The notes: generated by a model not told the origin, from the sequence alone. A stretch of DNA of 64,000 nucleotides from Planctomycetota bacterium (GCA_024276605.1 JAJRWX010000085.1:1-64000), one strand, 5' to 3'; numbered from the stretch's first letter, positions 22,006 through 45,545 are shown. Program-made: numbers and translations.

Positions 22006-22950
22006 ATGGAACAAGCAACATCCATGCCTCCGTCCAACAAAGCCCTATCGCCTTTGGGTCGCACGACGGCTTCCACCCAACTTAGCGGGTCCGCAGTGAT
22101 TTTAACGTGGGTTTTGTCTATTGTATTGCACATCATCTTGTTGGGTATCATGTTGTGGGTTGTTTTTCCATTTTCCTCACCCACCGAAGAAGCGCTGCCG
22201 GTTGCCTTGACGGAATATATCGGGACAGTCAACCAAGCGACTTTTCAACCATCACCAATGCCCCATCAAGCAGACGCATCACAGCCGACGCCGGCTATGG
22301 AGCAACATGTTGCACCGGAGATTCCCGCTACACTAGCTGATTTGGGTATCACTAAAACGGTGGATGTGCCCATCATCGGCCTGGTGACGGGCAAGGCGGA
22401 TATGGATAGTTATGGACTATCCGGCGGGGCTAAAGCACCGAATTTTTTTGGATTGGGGAGTAGTGCCAAAGCCGCGAAACGTATCGTCTATGTCGTCGAT
22501 CGAAGCGGTTCGATGACCGATACCTTTCAACACGTACGCGCCGAGTTGCAACGATCCATATCTTCACTTCGTCGTAGTCAAAAGTTTCACGTCATTTTTT
22601 TCAATGCCGGTGCGCCGCTTACCAACACGCCGGGCCGTATGGTTAGTGCCATCGCAGCGCAAAAGAAGGAATTTTTTGATTTCCTGCAAAGTGTAAGACC
22701 GGAAGGTAGCACGCACCCCGAAGCAGCCATGCGACACGCGCTGGCGCTCGAGCCTGACATGATTTACTTTCTGACGGATGGCGAATTTGATTCCGGTCTG
22801 GTGAAAAAACTGGATCGCTGGAACAGTGAACGAAAAGTACAGATATTTACCATTGCGTACTTTGATCCCGGAGGCGCGAAACTACTCGAACTTATCGCTC
22901 GTGAACATCATGGGGCCTTCAAATTTATTACCGAACTCGATTTACCATAA
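22006..22950 (+). CDS. Membrane-anchored VWA-domain protein with TonB-like SxxxH helix
   Basis: 314 aa. A single N-terminal membrane helix (about residues 30-54) contains SIVLH, that is Ser38 and His42 with the SxxxH spacing conserved in the TonB transmembrane helix. A Pro-rich linker follows to about residue 120, then a C-terminal VWA domain (from about 158). It has a complete MIDAS metal site: DRSGS at 165-169, Thr in GSTHPEAAM, and Asp in FLTDGEFD. The topology is that of TonB or TolA with the C-terminal domain replaced by a VWA fold. ExbB and two ExbD genes follow in the same transcription unit, so it may be driven by the proton motive force. Function is inferred. Confidence 0.8.
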   Translation: MEQATSMPPSNKALSPLGRTTASTQLSGSAVILTWVLSIVLHIILLGIMLWVVFPFSSPTEEALPVALTEYIGTVNQATFQPSPMPHQADASQPTPAMEQHVAPEIPATLADLGITKTVDVPIIGLVTGKADMDSYGLSGGAKAPNFFGLGSSAKAAKRIVYVVDRSGSMTDTFQHVRAELQRSISSLRRSQKFHVIFFNAGAPLTNTPGRMVSAIAAQKKEFFDFLQSVRPEGSTHPEAAMRHALALEPDMIYFLTDGEFDSGLVKKLDRWNSERKVQIFTIAYFDPGGAKLLELIAREHHGAFKFITELDLP

Positions 22951-23120
22951 GGAAATGAATAGCCGGCGCCGTTGCCGGTATTGTGATCTATACTGCAACG
23001 CAGAAACCCAAGTGATGTACTTGGTTCCTTGGCCTTTCAAGAACGTTTTACAAATGAACGCCCTACGTATGAAGGATAGACTCTTCCACCCGTGTAAGCC
23101 CTCGGCCTTCTATTATGCCC

Positions 23121-23296
23121 TGGTGCTTTGTCGTGGCTTATTATTCGGGTTCATCGAGGGTGGCATGGGCAAGGCTTTTTTTGCCCGTGGCGACGTCCGG
23201 AGCAACACGGGTAAGTCCCGATGTACCCCGAAACTAATTCGGGGTACATCGGGACTTACCCATGCCACCCGAATGCTTAGCTGTGACAAAGCACTA
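23121..23296. repeat. Family A palindromic repeat running into the TPR gene
   Basis: 176 bp with ends TGGTGCTTTG and CAAAGCACTA. Both ends carry the same change (CTTTG instead of the CTGTG of other copies). Inside are GGGTGGCATGGGC and CCATGCCACCC arms and a CCCGATGTACCCCG tip palindrome. It contains no in-frame stop relative to the downstream TPR gene. Confidence 0.85.
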
Positions 23297-24334
23297 GTAT
23301 GGTGTATCTTGGCGTTTCCTGGTTTCGCAGTAGGTGATCAGGTGACGGTTGGCGCAGAGGTATATCTCAACGTCTCGATCGTATCATTCCAGCAAGGCAA
23401 ACTCATCTTTCGAACACCCAGAGGACAGGATATAGAGTCGTTCATCCGCGATGTCGATTTTATCATGGTATCGCGCGGTCGACGTTTCACCGACTTCAAT
23501 CAAGCGGAGCAATATCTGCACGACGATGAACCGGCACGGGCTATACCACGATACCAGCGGGCTTTCCGTACTGCGGATTCTTTTTGGCAAGACCTATTTT
23601 TTGCACGGGCGATCATAGCTAGTGATCGTGCCGGTCGAATTGAACAGGCTATTCGATTCTGGATTATCCTTGCAGAATCCGACCAATCAGGTGTCGCGGC
23701 TGCTGTTCAACTATTACCCAGCCATTTTCAGGACAACCGACGTCAAGACATGGATCGTGCGATCCTGCAGCTCACCAAAGCAGCCGCGAAACAGCGTAAG
23801 CCGGACTTGGCTATGCTCTTTCAATTACTGCAATACCGCTTGCTCGACGCTATCAGCGACAATCGAATGGATGAAGTTGCCCATACGGTTCTCGTGTCTG
23901 ATTGGTCGGACAATCTGAACTACACGGAAGTCTATGACATGCTTATCGATGTACTAAATCACACCATGCGATCTGAGGTGACGCAGGAATCGTTGGCCAG
24001 GCTCGATCAAGCTTTGGCGGTTGCTCCCACGGATATCCTGTCTCGATTGTTACTACTCAAGGGATATGCGTTATTAAGGATTCAAGAAGAGCCGGGCAGT
24101 GAAGTGTCAGCCGGGTGGGCGTTTATGCGTGTGGTGGCGCACATGCCGGATTCGCCCGACGCAGCGGAAGGTCTTTACGGCGCGGCGTTGGCTATGGAAA
24201 AGCTGGGGCGGGTGGATAAATCTGTGTCGCTGTTGCAGGAGTGCCGGGATCATCAATATGCATCAGCGGCTATTAAGGCGCAGGCCGAGAAAATGTTGCG
24301 GCGCTTGCAATCCGTCCGGGAAACGGCAGGATAA
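23273..24334 (+). CDS. Exported TPR-like protein of the VWA-ExbBD operon
   Basis: 353 aa from the ATG at 23273. That start gives a credible signal peptide: MLSCDK, the hydrophobic stretch ALVWCILAFPGF, then AVG before DQVTVGAEVYL. The start codon and first residues lie inside a family A repeat, and no Shine-Dalgarno sequence is evident. The frame stays open upstream into the VWA gene, so ATGs at 23054 or 23069 are alternatives. The mature part is helical with TPR-like units (EPARAIPRYQRAF, AAEGLYGAALAMEKLGRVDKSVSLL). It lies between the VWA and exbB genes and probably serves as a periplasmic partner. No catalytic motif was seen. Confidence 0.65.
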   Translation: MLSCDKALVWCILAFPGFAVGDQVTVGAEVYLNVSIVSFQQGKLIFRTPRGQDIESFIRDVDFIMVSRGRRFTDFNQAEQYLHDDEPARAIPRYQRAFRTADSFWQDLFFARAIIASDRAGRIEQAIRFWIILAESDQSGVAAAVQLLPSHFQDNRRQDMDRAILQLTKAAAKQRKPDLAMLFQLLQYRLLDAISDNRMDEVAHTVLVSDWSDNLNYTEVYDMLIDVLNHTMRSEVTQESLARLDQALAVAPTDILSRLLLLKGYALLRIQEEPGSEVSAGWAFMRVVAHMPDSPDAAEGLYGAALAMEKLGRVDKSVSLLQECRDHQYASAAIKAQAEKMLRRLQSVRETAG

Positions 24335-24380
24335 AAAAACGTAGATCACTACAACCGCTCTTGCGAAGGAGGATAATGAA

Positions 24381-25181
24381 TTGGTGGTACGGATTATATT
24401 CATGACCGCGCTGTTGGCTGCTATGGTGGGTCTTATGTTGGTCGTGCCCGCATCCGCACAGACGGATGGTGTGATTGACGCAAACGCAGCGGCGCCGGCT
24501 AATGTTTCGATCAAATATTTCGACTTTTTTGTTGTCAAAGGAGGCTATATTGCTTTTGGCCTCATTGCACTATCGATCGTGACCATCGCCCTGGCTATTG
24601 ATTATGGCGTCTCGATTCGACGGGCTACCATCGTATCTCCCGACTCAGCACGAGAGACTAAATCGCTGATCGACCAACACAAATACGTCGAAGCCGTGAA
24701 ATATACATCTGAGGATCCGAGCATGATGGGTTGCGTGCTCAACGCTGCGTTGCTTGAATCACATAACGGTTTTGCGGCTATGGAACGGGCCATCGAAGAA
24801 TCTCTCGACGATCGATCTGCACGACTATTTCGAAAAATCGAGTACGTGAGCATCATCGGTAATGTCTCCCCCATGATTGGACTACTGGGAACTGTGATGG
24901 GTATGATTCTACTCTTTGCGGAAATCCACGCCGCGGATGCGTTTCCCGGTGCGCGAATCGTCGCTGACCGAATCTCCATCGCCCTGATTACGACATTCTG
25001 GGGGTTGGCGGTGGCTATTCCCGCGCTCAGCATTTACGCGGTCTTTCGCAATCGCATTGATGTACTGACCGCGGAATGTGCATTAGCTGCGGAGCAAATC
25101 CTCGGCGTGTTCAAACCGGGCGAATCGCCTACCAGTGCAGCCCCAACAGCCGTGCCGAATCAACCGGCGCAAAAAACATAG
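24381..25181 (+). CDS. exbB: MotA/TolQ/ExbB proton channel family protein
   Basis: 266 aa. Proton-conducting subunit of an ExbB/ExbD- or TolQ/TolR-type motor in the inner membrane. It has an N-terminal signal-like helix ending in PASAQ, then three membrane helices: near GYIAFGLIALSIVTIALAID, SPMIGLLGTVMGMILLF, and ISIALITTFWGLAVAIPAL. The last two carry the conserved Thr/Gly/Pro pattern of the channel. AAGGAGG precedes a TTG at 24381, and a GTG follows at 24384. The overlapping ATG at 24376 is in a dead frame. It is followed closely by two exbD genes, so the complex may have two ExbD types. Confidence 0.9.
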   Translation: MVVRIIFMTALLAAMVGLMLVVPASAQTDGVIDANAAAPANVSIKYFDFFVVKGGYIAFGLIALSIVTIALAIDYGVSIRRATIVSPDSARETKSLIDQHKYVEAVKYTSEDPSMMGCVLNAALLESHNGFAAMERAIEESLDDRSARLFRKIEYVSIIGNVSPMIGLLGTVMGMILLFAEIHAADAFPGARIVADRISIALITTFWGLAVAIPALSIYAVFRNRIDVLTAECALAAEQILGVFKPGESPTSAAPTAVPNQPAQKT

Positions 25182-25188
25182 GTGCAGG

Positions 25189-25644
25189 ATGCGTCACGAA
25201 AGAAGGCAACGTCAAACATCATCCGGTATCAGCTTTAATGCGGTGCCTATGGTCGATGTGATTTTCATGCTCACCATTTTCTTCATGTTGGTAAGCCGAT
25301 TTTCATCCGCCGAGCAGATTCCGATGGAGTTACCCAAACCTGAACACTCGCAAGCAAGCGTCGTGAAGATTCCCGAGCGCGTCATTATTAACTGCCGCGT
25401 CAACGGTTTACTACCCGCAGAGTCGCCACAAGCGGTGTTTAGTATAGGGCCGAATCAGCCCGAACCATTAGATGTGATTGCACGACGGTTGGTGGCCATG
25501 CGCCAAAAATCTCCTAACCTCAAAGTGGTCGTGCGTGCGGATCGGCGACTACCCTACGCCCAGGTGCGTGAGGTCATGCGTATGTTAGCTAATCATAACA
25601 TTGGCATGCTCAATGTCGTGGCCCATGTGGATGAGAAGAACTGA
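25189..25644 (+). CDS. exbD: ExbD/TolR family protein (first)
   Basis: 151 aa. Single-helix stator-type partner of ExbB. A basic N-terminus (MRHERRQRQ) is followed by the membrane helix VPMVDVIFMLTIFFMLVS. This carries the conserved membrane Asp (PMVD) needed for proton transfer in ExbD and TolR. The periplasmic domain follows and ends with DRRLPYAQVREVMRMLANHNI, typical of the family. The start at 25189 lies 7 bp after exbB; the longer frame reaching into exbB is unlikely. It ends one base before the next exbD. Confidence 0.9.
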   Translation: MRHERRQRQTSSGISFNAVPMVDVIFMLTIFFMLVSRFSSAEQIPMELPKPEHSQASVVKIPERVIINCRVNGLLPAESPQAVFSIGPNQPEPLDVIARRLVAMRQKSPNLKVVVRADRRLPYAQVREVMRMLANHNIGMLNVVAHVDEKN

Positions 25645-25645
25645 C

Positions 25646-26158
25646 ATGCGCAGCCGCACCGATCATCGATCAACTTCACAGCGTCAAGACAGTGTCATCG
25701 CCAGAGTGCGCGAGCGACGACTGCGCCGTAGCCGATTGCGCCAAGGCTCAGCGATTACTATGAATTTTGCTCCGATGATTGATATGACGTTTCTATTACT
25801 CATTTTCTTTCTCGTCACAACAACCTTTGAACGGGCGGAAGGTATTCTGGCTTCCAAGCTACCGCAACATACCGGGAAGCACCAGGCTAGCCTTCCCATC
25901 GTGCCTATCGTCGTACGTGTGCAACCGGACGGTACTGATCACAACGCTTTCACCATCTCCATTGACGGATTCGATGCGCAACCAACCACCTTCGCTGCGC
26001 TGACGTCAGTCTTGTTGGATATTCAACAGCAACCCGGCTTTGATAACGAAACGCCCGTCGTGATCGTCGCCAGTCATGATTTATTGTGGGATCATGTCGT
26101 CGCCAGTTGGAATGCTGCACTACATGCCGATTGCCGGCGCGTCGCGTTTGGAGACTAA
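25646..26158 (+). CDS. exbD: ExbD/TolR family protein (second)
   Basis: 170 aa. A long Arg-rich N-terminus (about 35 residues, RERRLRRSRLRQ) precedes the membrane helix APMIDMTFLLLIFFLVTTTF with the conserved Asp. The periplasmic domain is diverged from the first ExbD. The ATG at 25646 follows the previous stop by one base, which suggests translational coupling. Two unlike ExbD copies after one ExbB are common in planctomycetes and bacteroidetes. The domain ends with VVASWNAALHADCRRVAFG. Confidence 0.88.
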   Translation: MRSRTDHRSTSQRQDSVIARVRERRLRRSRLRQGSAITMNFAPMIDMTFLLLIFFLVTTTFERAEGILASKLPQHTGKHQASLPIVPIVVRVQPDGTDHNAFTISIDGFDAQPTTFAALTSVLLDIQQQPGFDNETPVVIVASHDLLWDHVVASWNAALHADCRRVAFGD

Positions 26159-26163
26159 GGCGA

Positions 26164-28938
26164 ATGGTCAATACGCAAGTGTATCGACGTAGCCACCTTA
26201 CCCTCTACTCAGGAATTATTGTTCCACTCACGGCTAGCTTTGTATGCCTGGTTGGTCTGTCCTCCTCCGTATATGCACAATCAGGTGCGACGGATAGCTC
26301 CGAGCAGACGCGCTTTTCCACGAAGGTTTTTCGTAGAGCGTTGCAACAGCGCGGGTTAACGGAACTGCTCGAACATCATTTAGATCGATACCCGTCGCGC
26401 GACCCCATTGAAAAACTCTTGCAGGTGCGTGAGCTTCGTTTGGCGCAGGCAGCCGATGAGTATCTGACGAAAAAACGACGACGCAAAGCCATCGTTCAAG
26501 CCAATCAAATCCTGAAGAAACTCATCAAACAACATCCCGACGATCAGCGGCACTTTCAGTGGCGTTTCGCGCTGGCCTATTCGTTGATATACGATGAAGC
26601 AGAGCCTTACTTTACGCGCATACTTTACGAACAAAGCCATCCGACGGATGCGAAGAGGCTGGGCGCGATCACCAACCGGGCCATCGATGAGTTGGTTACA
26701 TTGCAATCTCAACTTAATGTTGAATATGAGAAACTAGATAAACTTTCGGTCAAAGAGTTCGAGCGTCTAGAACGCAGCGGTTATATTGACAGCATCGATC
26801 AGTTGGAACCCAAAGCCGAGTACCTGCTCCTTTGGACCTGGTTTTATGACGCTTTGTCGCGACCTGAAAACGATCGGATTAGACTTCAACGTCTGCGTCA
26901 CCTGAAAGAGACAGTTTCAAAAAACCGACGTCTGTTGGACACACCACACCGGGCGTCGCGCGTGCAGGTGCAGATGTTATTGTTGGTCGGTATGACGCAT
27001 CGATTATTGTATCGACACGTCATTGCGCGTGACCTTTTAGCTCAGGCTATTCAAATCGCCGACCGTATTAGCGATCCTGATATTCGCCAAAACGCAGCCT
27101 GGGCGAAAGCGCTGGCCCAGGTGGAGCAAATTCGCAATGAACGCGATGTGGGTCGATTTGACAAAGCCGTTAAGTTCGCCCGTAAGCTCGACGCACAAGC
27201 CGCCGCCCAACATCCCGAAGACTTTGGGTTGCGTATGGTCGCTGCCCTGTTACAACAGTCGATTTACCGGGCTGCTGCAAAACAATCCGATCAAACCGGC
27301 GAATTGGCCCAAGCCCGGCAATATCGACGCCGATCATGGGAAGCGCTGACCCAGTTGATTAGCAGGCGCCCTCAACGACGCGATGAAATCTACGCCCTGC
27401 TGTATAGTCGTCTTGAATCCAATGTTGACCCGGCCAGGCTGGACCCTGTCGAACAAGCGGCACTCATCGCCGGATTGCTTATTGAAACATCTCAAAAAGA
27501 CAAAGACCAACAATTAGCCAGAGCGCTTCGCGTCGGCAACTATTTTCTGGAAAATTCCGCGCATGCAAGGTCACTGCTGCCGGAAGTGTTGTACAACATG
27601 GGTGTTGCGCACTATCGGTTACACCAGGCAGCAGACGCAGCCACTTTTTTCATACGCCTGGCTAAACAACACCCTGCTTTCGAGCATAGTCAACAAGCAG
27701 CCGTCTATGCCGTGCAGCTCGCAGCTGGATTGTATGAAGACCCCCAATGGCGAGATCAGCCGGCTGTGCAGACGCTGTATTTGGATGCGCTTCACCTACT
27801 TGTCACGACTTTTGCCGACACGCGCGAGGGACGCTACTGGCAGTTTCAGTATGCCCAACTTCTTGAATCGCTTCAGCACTATCAAAGCGCCGCTAACGAA
27901 TATGCACAGGTTCTCAGTAGTCATGCAAACTATACCGAGGCTCGTTTTTTCCAGCTTCGATGCCTGGTGAAAGAATTGGATAATACTTCCACAACGACTA
28001 ACCAAGCCGACGCACGACAACAGGCGAGTGAATTTTTCGATGCCCAGCGCACCTTTATGGCCTGGATCACAAGTTACATGACACTTGCCAAGAATGAAGC
28101 GCAATCGCTGCGGCTTAGACAATACTTAGCCCAGAGTAAGCTCCTCGCGGCTGAGGTGCAGATGTTTGATCCGATCAACCGCCCTTCGCTTGCACTGGAT
28201 ACACTGGCAAGTATCGAAAACAACCTCGACGAATTCCCCAACCTTTCTAGTCGAGTATGGCGACTCAGGCTCACTGCTTTTGAGCAGCTTGGCCGACTCG
28301 ATGAAGCGGCTGCGTTGATCCCAGTCTTTATGAAAACCGATCCCCAAGGCGCAGGGCCTATGCTCCAATCGTTGTATCAAGCCATAAGTGCTCAGGTAAC
28401 GTACCTACGCACCACCGGTGAAGACATAGCCGCCCAAACCAAAGCCGAAACTGCGCTCATGCTAGCCGAGCAGATAGCCCAATCGAATCAACGTGACCAA
28501 ACCAACCTATCAGTTGACAACCAGTTTGCAGCGCAAATGCAACTCGGTGAAGCCAACCTCCAGGCACAACGGTTTGATCAGGCACGGCAACTTTTTCAAC
28601 CATTCGCGCCACCGAAAGAAAGCATCAACACAGCCGAGTCTATCATGGCCAGGGCGGTGATGGGATATGGCCAGGCGCTGTATGGATTGAAGTTGTACGA
28701 CGACGCCCTGCCTTACTTCAACCGTTTAGCCACCGCCCTTCCGGATGATCATCCGCTCAAATGGCCCGCACTACTGCGCGATCTTGAGTGCCGCACTGCT
28801 CTAGCTGAACCACCCGTAGATATTATCAAAGTCATTCGTCAACACCAATTTCTTCACCCCGACGCCGACGACGAAACGCTCGTGAAACGGTTCGACGTAT
28901 TGCTACGCGAAAACCAACGACGACTCGATCAACCCTGA
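26164..28938 (+). CDS. Large exported TPR protein
   Basis: 924 aa. The signal peptide runs to about residue 38 (SSSVYAQ). The rest is almost entirely helical repeat sequence with clear TPR units in the middle and end (LPEVLYNMGVAHYRLHQAADAATFFIRLAKQHP; AVMGYGQALYGLKLYDDALPYFNRLATALP). The ATG at 26164 lies 5 bp after exbD2 with TAAGG upstream, making it the last gene of the operon. Long periplasmic TPR proteins usually act as scaffolds, so a role linking the ExbBD-VWA motor to envelope partners is an inference. No enzyme motif was seen. Confidence 0.8.
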   Translation: MVNTQVYRRSHLTLYSGIIVPLTASFVCLVGLSSSVYAQSGATDSSEQTRFSTKVFRRALQQRGLTELLEHHLDRYPSRDPIEKLLQVRELRLAQAADEYLTKKRRRKAIVQANQILKKLIKQHPDDQRHFQWRFALAYSLIYDEAEPYFTRILYEQSHPTDAKRLGAITNRAIDELVTLQSQLNVEYEKLDKLSVKEFERLERSGYIDSIDQLEPKAEYLLLWTWFYDALSRPENDRIRLQRLRHLKETVSKNRRLLDTPHRASRVQVQMLLLVGMTHRLLYRHVIARDLLAQAIQIADRISDPDIRQNAAWAKALAQVEQIRNERDVGRFDKAVKFARKLDAQAAAQHPEDFGLRMVAALLQQSIYRAAAKQSDQTGELAQARQYRRRSWEALTQLISRRPQRRDEIYALLYSRLESNVDPARLDPVEQAALIAGLLIETSQKDKDQQLARALRVGNYFLENSAHARSLLPEVLYNMGVAHYRLHQAADAATFFIRLAKQHPAFEHSQQAAVYAVQLAAGLYEDPQWRDQPAVQTLYLDALHLLVTTFADTREGRYWQFQYAQLLESLQHYQSAANEYAQVLSSHANYTEARFFQLRCLVKELDNTSTTTNQADARQQASEFFDAQRTFMAWITSYMTLAKNEAQSLRLRQYLAQSKLLAAEVQMFDPINRPSLALDTLASIENNLDEFPNLSSRVWRLRLTAFEQLGRLDEAAALIPVFMKTDPQGAGPMLQSLYQAISAQVTYLRTTGEDIAAQTKAETALMLAEQIAQSNQRDQTNLSVDNQFAAQMQLGEANLQAQRFDQARQLFQPFAPPKESINTAESIMARAVMGYGQALYGLKLYDDALPYFNRLATALPDDHPLKWPALLRDLECRTALAEPPVDIIKVIRQHQFLHPDADDETLVKRFDVLLRENQRRLDQP

Positions 28939-45389: not shown

Positions 45390-45545
45390 TTGTGCTGTGT
45401 CACACCTTATTTTTCGGGTTCATCCAGGGTGGCATGGGCAACGTTTTTTTTGCCCGTGTCGGCCTCCGGAACTACACGGGTAAGTCCCGATGTATCCCGA
45501 CTTTACGTCGGGATACATCGGGACTTACCCATGCCACCCGACGAT
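45390..45545. repeat. Family A palindromic repeat (long copy)
   Basis: Left end TTGTGCTGTGTCAC directly after the kinase stop. GGGTGGCATGGGC and CCATGCCACCC arms enclose an ACACGGG arm and the perfect tip palindrome CCCGATGTATCCCGAC. The right inverted end has decayed. Confidence 0.85.

Follow-up and report, generated by a model that had tools for sequence, protein, structure and literature searches.

Force transducers with a vWA domain were described in June 2025 from Planctomycetes and other phyla (Williams-Jones et al. 2025, Mol Biol Evol 42:msaf138, PMC12204202). They have a transmembrane helix with an SHLS motif, in which Ser and His are conserved, a motor-box strand after the helix, a disordered linker of ca. 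100 residues and a C-terminal vWA domain, and the helix is predicted to dock at the edge of the motor via its His. Many of these proteins carry SHLS, and their genes lie beside TPR and tolQ-like genes and a pair of different tolR-like ones (PMC12204202). A literature search beyond this paper found no other description of a VWA transducer system. Here, we analyzed a contig stretch of 64,000 nucleotides from a Planctomycetota bacterium (GCA_024276605.1, JAJRWX010000085.1:1-64000; hereafter, the window), in which a gene for a membrane-anchored VWA protein opens an operon with ExbB/ExbD-type motor genes (Table 1). ORF calls and Pfam assignments agree with the order given in a preliminary description of the locus, i.e., VWA, TPR1, ExbB, ExbD, ExbD and TPR2. 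After a VWA-TPR1 gap of 322 bp, the genes are tightly packed, with 49 bp between TPR1 and ExbB, 7 bp between ExbB and ExbD1, 1 bp between the two ExbDs and 5 bp before TPR2. The first gap contains a 59-bp palindrome with 27-bp arms, of which the window has a further copy at 45478-45530 and a half copy at 25-48. Promoter and terminator scans gave matches no better than chance. The order VWA-(TPR1)-ExbB-ExbD-ExbD-TPR2 was found again across many families, with TPR1 absent from the operon in some relatives, and since the same order recurs in nearly all relatives, the arrangement is not due to chance. At several loci, two or three SxxxH VWA genes stand in tandem before a single motor operon (L103, L104, L105, L110, L112, L116, L135-L137 and L139), which suggests alternative or mixed arms sharing one motor.

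Table 1. Features of the VWA-ExbB-ExbD locus, with positions counted from the first nucleotide of the window
Feature	Coordinates	Strand	Remarks
VWA force transducer (putative)	22006..22950	+	First operon gene; helix, linker, VWA domain; probably on the periplasmic side
TPR1, likely periplasmic partner	23273..24334	+	Start ATG 23273; putative signal peptide, SH3-like beta-barrel (22-65), TPR-like alpha-solenoid
ExbB/TolQ-type motor subunit	24384..25181	+	Pfam MotA_ExbB 7.5e-27
ExbD1	25189..25644	+	Pfam ExbD 1.2e-18; membrane Asp (PMVDV)
ExbD2	25646..26158	+	Pfam ExbD 1.2e-15; membrane Asp (PMIDM)
TPR2, large TPR protein	26164..28938	+	Last operon gene; Pfam TPR families; N-terminal hydrophobic segment
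Divergent conserved gene, 397 aa	20466..21659	-	Putative signal peptide; no Pfam family
Inverted-repeat element, VWA-TPR1 gap	23206..23264	.	Outside the conserved system

The first gene codes for a protein with a VWA_2/VWA match in the Pfam scan. In a single-chain structure model, a single membrane helix spans residues 28-56 and contains W35, S38 and H42, the VWA fold extends over about 146-312, and most of residues 65-140 in between, a stretch containing Pro, are modeled with pLDDT of <50 and appear disordered. The MIDAS site is complete (D165, S167, S169, T236 and D258) and invariant across 22 aligned homologues, as are W35, S38 and H42. These results bear out the anatomy first proposed for this protein, namely one N-terminal membrane helix with Ser38-x3-His42, a Pro-containing linker and a C-terminal VWA domain with a full MIDAS. 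C-terminal of the helix there is a conserved LP...G73 patch, and the single-chain model shows no strand for a motor box. The charge pattern flanking the helix gave no clear topology signal, many of the reading frames compared having uncertain starts. Searching with the VWA model retrieved generic VWA folds only, the closest being known VWA/I-domain folds, and no PDB entry matched the VWA protein by sequence. Its nearest named relatives, at 82% identity, come from metagenome-assembled Phycisphaerae/Planctomycetota.

Conservation of the SxxxH pair in homologues of the VWA protein, on which the preliminary description had staked its proposal in advance, was almost complete in those next to a motor. 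The comparison comprised 116 distinct VWA homologues, whose loci come from this class and from outside it. Among those that adjoin motor genes and reach the helix, the His is present in 77/77 and the Ser in 76/77, the only exception being a second VWA copy with AxxxH. A Trp is found at position -3 in 61/76, while the remaining flanking positions of the helix vary among hydrophobic residues. The second half of SHLS is not kept: in the 76 homologues, position +11 is Met in 24 and Leu in 19, position +15 is mostly Val, Thr or Tyr, and the second Ser is absent. This is not disqualifying, since Leu and the second Ser show weaker conservation in Ton, too (PMC12215075), and SHLS is ascribed only to 'many' of the published transducers. 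Most SxxxH homologues have exbB/exbD neighbors, and neither of the two outcomes named in the preliminary description as a refutation was observed; in uncensored loci, the motif and a nearby motor occurred together in 76 cases, the motif only in 15, the motor only in 2 and neither in 17 (Fisher p = 1.8e-9, to be taken as indicative only since the rows are related and were chosen by similarity to the query). In one of the two motor-only cases (L077), the adjacent ExbB was rejected as a spurious weak match (E 1e-4). Two other loci, L121 and L122, had been listed as motor-linked VWAs devoid of SxxxH and were discarded as such, given that both carry the motif. A profile built from the helix of the VWA family and its surroundings only was run against 10160 ORFs and found just two SxxxH matches at E <1 outside the family, namely the TonB of this genome (E 0.0076) and, at E 0.15, a protein encoded immediately ahead of a further ExbB-ExbD-ExbD set. 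The matches are weak, yet their direction is the one expected for kinship of the helices. An SxxxH-helix protein encoded upstream of a distant ExbB-ExbD-ExbD set (L154:3470-4669; ORF of 399 aa) is possibly another kind of transducer.

Thirteen of the 15 SxxxH VWAs with no motor nearby were examined, the other two belonging to Mariniblastus-type genomes, and in each of the 13 cases the genome encodes a VWA-type ExbB-ExbD-ExbD, either at another site or next to a further VWA copy. Six of these VWAs are additional to a motor-linked copy in their genome (G037, G001, G123, G073, G019 and G097). In G005 and four Mariniblastus-type genomes, ExbB-ExbD-ExbD is located elsewhere in the genome. One genome (G166) has VWA-TPR1-TPR2 on one contig and ExbB-ExbD-ExbD on another, and in a second one (G337, the genome of L052) VWA-TPR1 lies apart from ExbB-ExbD-ExbD-TPR2; the ExbBs of both nest among the close relatives of the window's ExbB in the ExbB tree. 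The operon is naturally split in at least two genomes. A VWA-type ExbB-ExbD-ExbD set was also seen in G171 (L088), where the VWA match is only marginal (E 4e-5) and the transducer may be missing, divergent or lost.

The ExbB of the window has the pore threonines (T170 and T204), which are invariant in the alignment of VWA-linked ExbBs, and S64 at the TonB-contact position, and the membrane Asp is present in all of the aligned ExbDs (136/136). Among VWA-linked ExbBs, the equivalent of Ser34 is kept in 62/65 and that of Pro190 in TM3 in 56/65; in E. coli, these ExbB Ser and Pro residues form a network with Ser16 and His20 of TonB (PMC12215075). On the other hand, Glu176 is found in 2/65 VWA-linked ExbBs versus 11/14 of the TonB type, and the window's protein has I199 where TonB-type ExbB has Glu. 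Nearly all ExbBs of both planctomycete lineages have an aliphatic residue in place of Trp38, a TonB partner. The tree places VWA-type ExbBs apart from the lineage that the same genomes carry in TPR-ExbB-single-ExbD sets, and the VWA-side clade has moderate support (94/70) and includes one other long-branch ExbB-ExbD-ExbD set. Like the anatomy, conservation and gene linkage of the VWA protein, these features are read directly from sequences and point to a motor lineage distinct from the TonB type with intact proton-pathway residues. The only other MotA/ExbB-family gene of the genome is the flagellar motA, located next to motB and other flagellar genes (96%-complete assembly), and the window's motor is the only ExbB/TolQ-type motor of the assembly. 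The genome also has a TonB with its own SxxxH helix, beside a TonB-dependent receptor (G000 contig C98, L081:8135-11376). The assembly of this genome yielded no TonB-type ExbB; a genome of the same genus (G222, L091) has one. Either the assembly has a gap here or TonB uses the VWA motor as well. A second recurrent set in this bacterial family is made up of a large TPR-like protein, ExbB and a single ExbD, with no adjacent SxxxH transducer (L142, L143, L146, L148, L149, L151, L153, L156, L157, L091 and L085).

As for the remaining genes, TPR1 matches TPR families below the Pfam threshold only. Its model (mean pLDDT 92.7) combines an SH3-like barrel with an alpha-solenoid, and the structure search returned generic TPR folds only. 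The 397-aa gene is adjacent and divergent to VWA in nearly all family genomes with enough upstream DNA, and it stays beside VWA even where exbBDD has moved away (L051/L087); it was not found at loci from outside the bacterial family. Its product is a good partner candidate for the VWA transducer.

Since SxxxH is kept and linked to a motor whose key residues are intact, a VWA transducer driven by ExbBD is well supported by the comparative sequence data. We consider it very probable that the operon codes for a dedicated Ton/Tol-like envelope motor with a VWA-tipped arm that grips a periplasmic or outer-membrane partner. ExbB and the two different ExbDs would form a proton-driven motor in the inner membrane, at which the VWA protein would dock via its N-terminal SxxxH helix, in the place used by TonB and TolA. 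The flexible linker would carry the force of the proton-driven movement to a VWA domain on the presumed periplasmic side, where it may grip its partner, probably by metal-dependent binding through the MIDAS. This partner would most likely reside in the periplasm or the outer membrane, and the products of TPR1, TPR2 and the divergent 397-aa gene are the best candidates for partner or adaptor.

Because no convincing TolB was found in the family (the TolB_N matches, obtained with one model, are weak and lie only inside proteins of >1200 residues) and no Pal above the curated cut-off in 40 family genomes, it is a reasonable guess, if a tentative one, that the VWA system stands in for Tol-Pal, pulling an outer-membrane or peptidoglycan partner to hold the outer membrane or to constrict it at division. 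The occurrence of the operon in nearly all family members sampled fits this role, as do weak matches of TPR1 and TPR2 to CpoB/YbgF and the TolQ/TolR-like motor. However, there are OmpA-domain proteins, among which a distant Pal is possible; the absence of TolB comes from one model, and there is no physical link to division. The multiple VWA copies of several genomes also suit a housekeeping tether less well than a repertoire for binding. That the VWA-ExbBDD-TPR machine and the 397-aa protein are the main trans-envelope force system, replacing Tol-Pal in outer-membrane maintenance throughout the large part of Planctomycetota devoid of a recognizable Tol-Pal, appears doubtful.

Adhesion and nutrient uptake are less supported than a substitute for Tol-Pal. 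MIDAS-bearing VWA domains are well known as adhesion modules, and the best structural matches of the model are VWA/I-domain folds, so the transducer might drive a surface adhesin, in line with the adhesive domain of the preliminary description, or a gliding-type process, the latter having been suggested for vWA transducers by analogy with myxobacterial gliding (PMC12204202). This seems unlikely for a VWA domain that is predicted to be periplasmic, in an operon where no gene resembles a surface adhesin or gliding protein, and such domains have many non-adhesive roles. It is also quite unlikely that the system feeds nutrient uptake in the manner of TonB, by opening outer-membrane receptors. TonB-dependent receptor plugs are indeed found in 25 of the 40 family genomes and TonB_C proteins in only 10, but in this genome a genuine TonB is encoded next to a receptor on a different contig, the genome's receptors are on contigs other than that of the VWA operon, and its relatives hold separate TonB-type ExbB-ExbD sets. 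Finally, VWA proteins are abundant in Planctomycetota, and the linkage could be incidental, with an ordinary membrane-anchored VWA protein in which SxxxH plays no coupling role. However, paralogues devoid of SxxxH are almost never near a motor (2 versus 17) and nearly all motor-linked homologues keep the motif, which makes this very improbable. The independent sequence tests made here back the recently proposed third type of energized envelope arm, beside TonB and TolA, and show that it occurs widely within one class of planctomycetes. Handles toward the target that the VWA domain would pull are the divergent seventh gene, the splits of the operon and the missing Glu176 of ExbB.

Compared with TonB-ExbBD, the system shares the SxxxH helix, the key ExbB Thr and ExbD Asp residues and the ExbB Ser and Pro of the TonB contact network, but it has two different ExbDs, an ExbB devoid of Glu176 and an operon with no receptor; a TonB_C domain was not found in the VWA protein by Pfam. 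The VWA helix resembles that of TolA (weak tolA_full match, E 0.0053), and ExbB and the ExbDs score best against TolQ and TolR, whereas the TolA C-terminal domain, a convincing TolB and a Pal above the cut-off are all missing. TPH-vWA proteins with TolQ only, the second class of PMC12204202, likewise have a membrane-anchored VWA beside a TolQ-like gene, but here SxxxH is present, helix 28-56 has no Asp and there are two ExbD genes. The closest counterparts are the vWA transducers of the same study, whose prototype is from Tichowtungia and with which the locus shares the Ser/His transmembrane helix, the disordered linker and the C-terminal vWA domain, as well as the TPR, tolQ-like and two different tolR-like neighbors; this placement is by architecture and synteny. 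Of the preliminary proposal, a TonB-type helix joined to a VWA domain and coupled to ExbB/ExbD, the conserved SxxxH and the motor linkage stand, the TPR proteins may act as the scaffolds proposed there, and the claim of a new motor does not hold, its kind having been published in 2025 (PMC12204202). The published loci have their vWA gene after the motor genes; here it is the first gene, before TPR1, a second large TPR gene comes last, an extra conserved gene is divergent, and the second half of SHLS is not kept. To the published kind, this locus adds the divergent seventh gene, the natural splits of the operon and the loss of ExbB Glu176.
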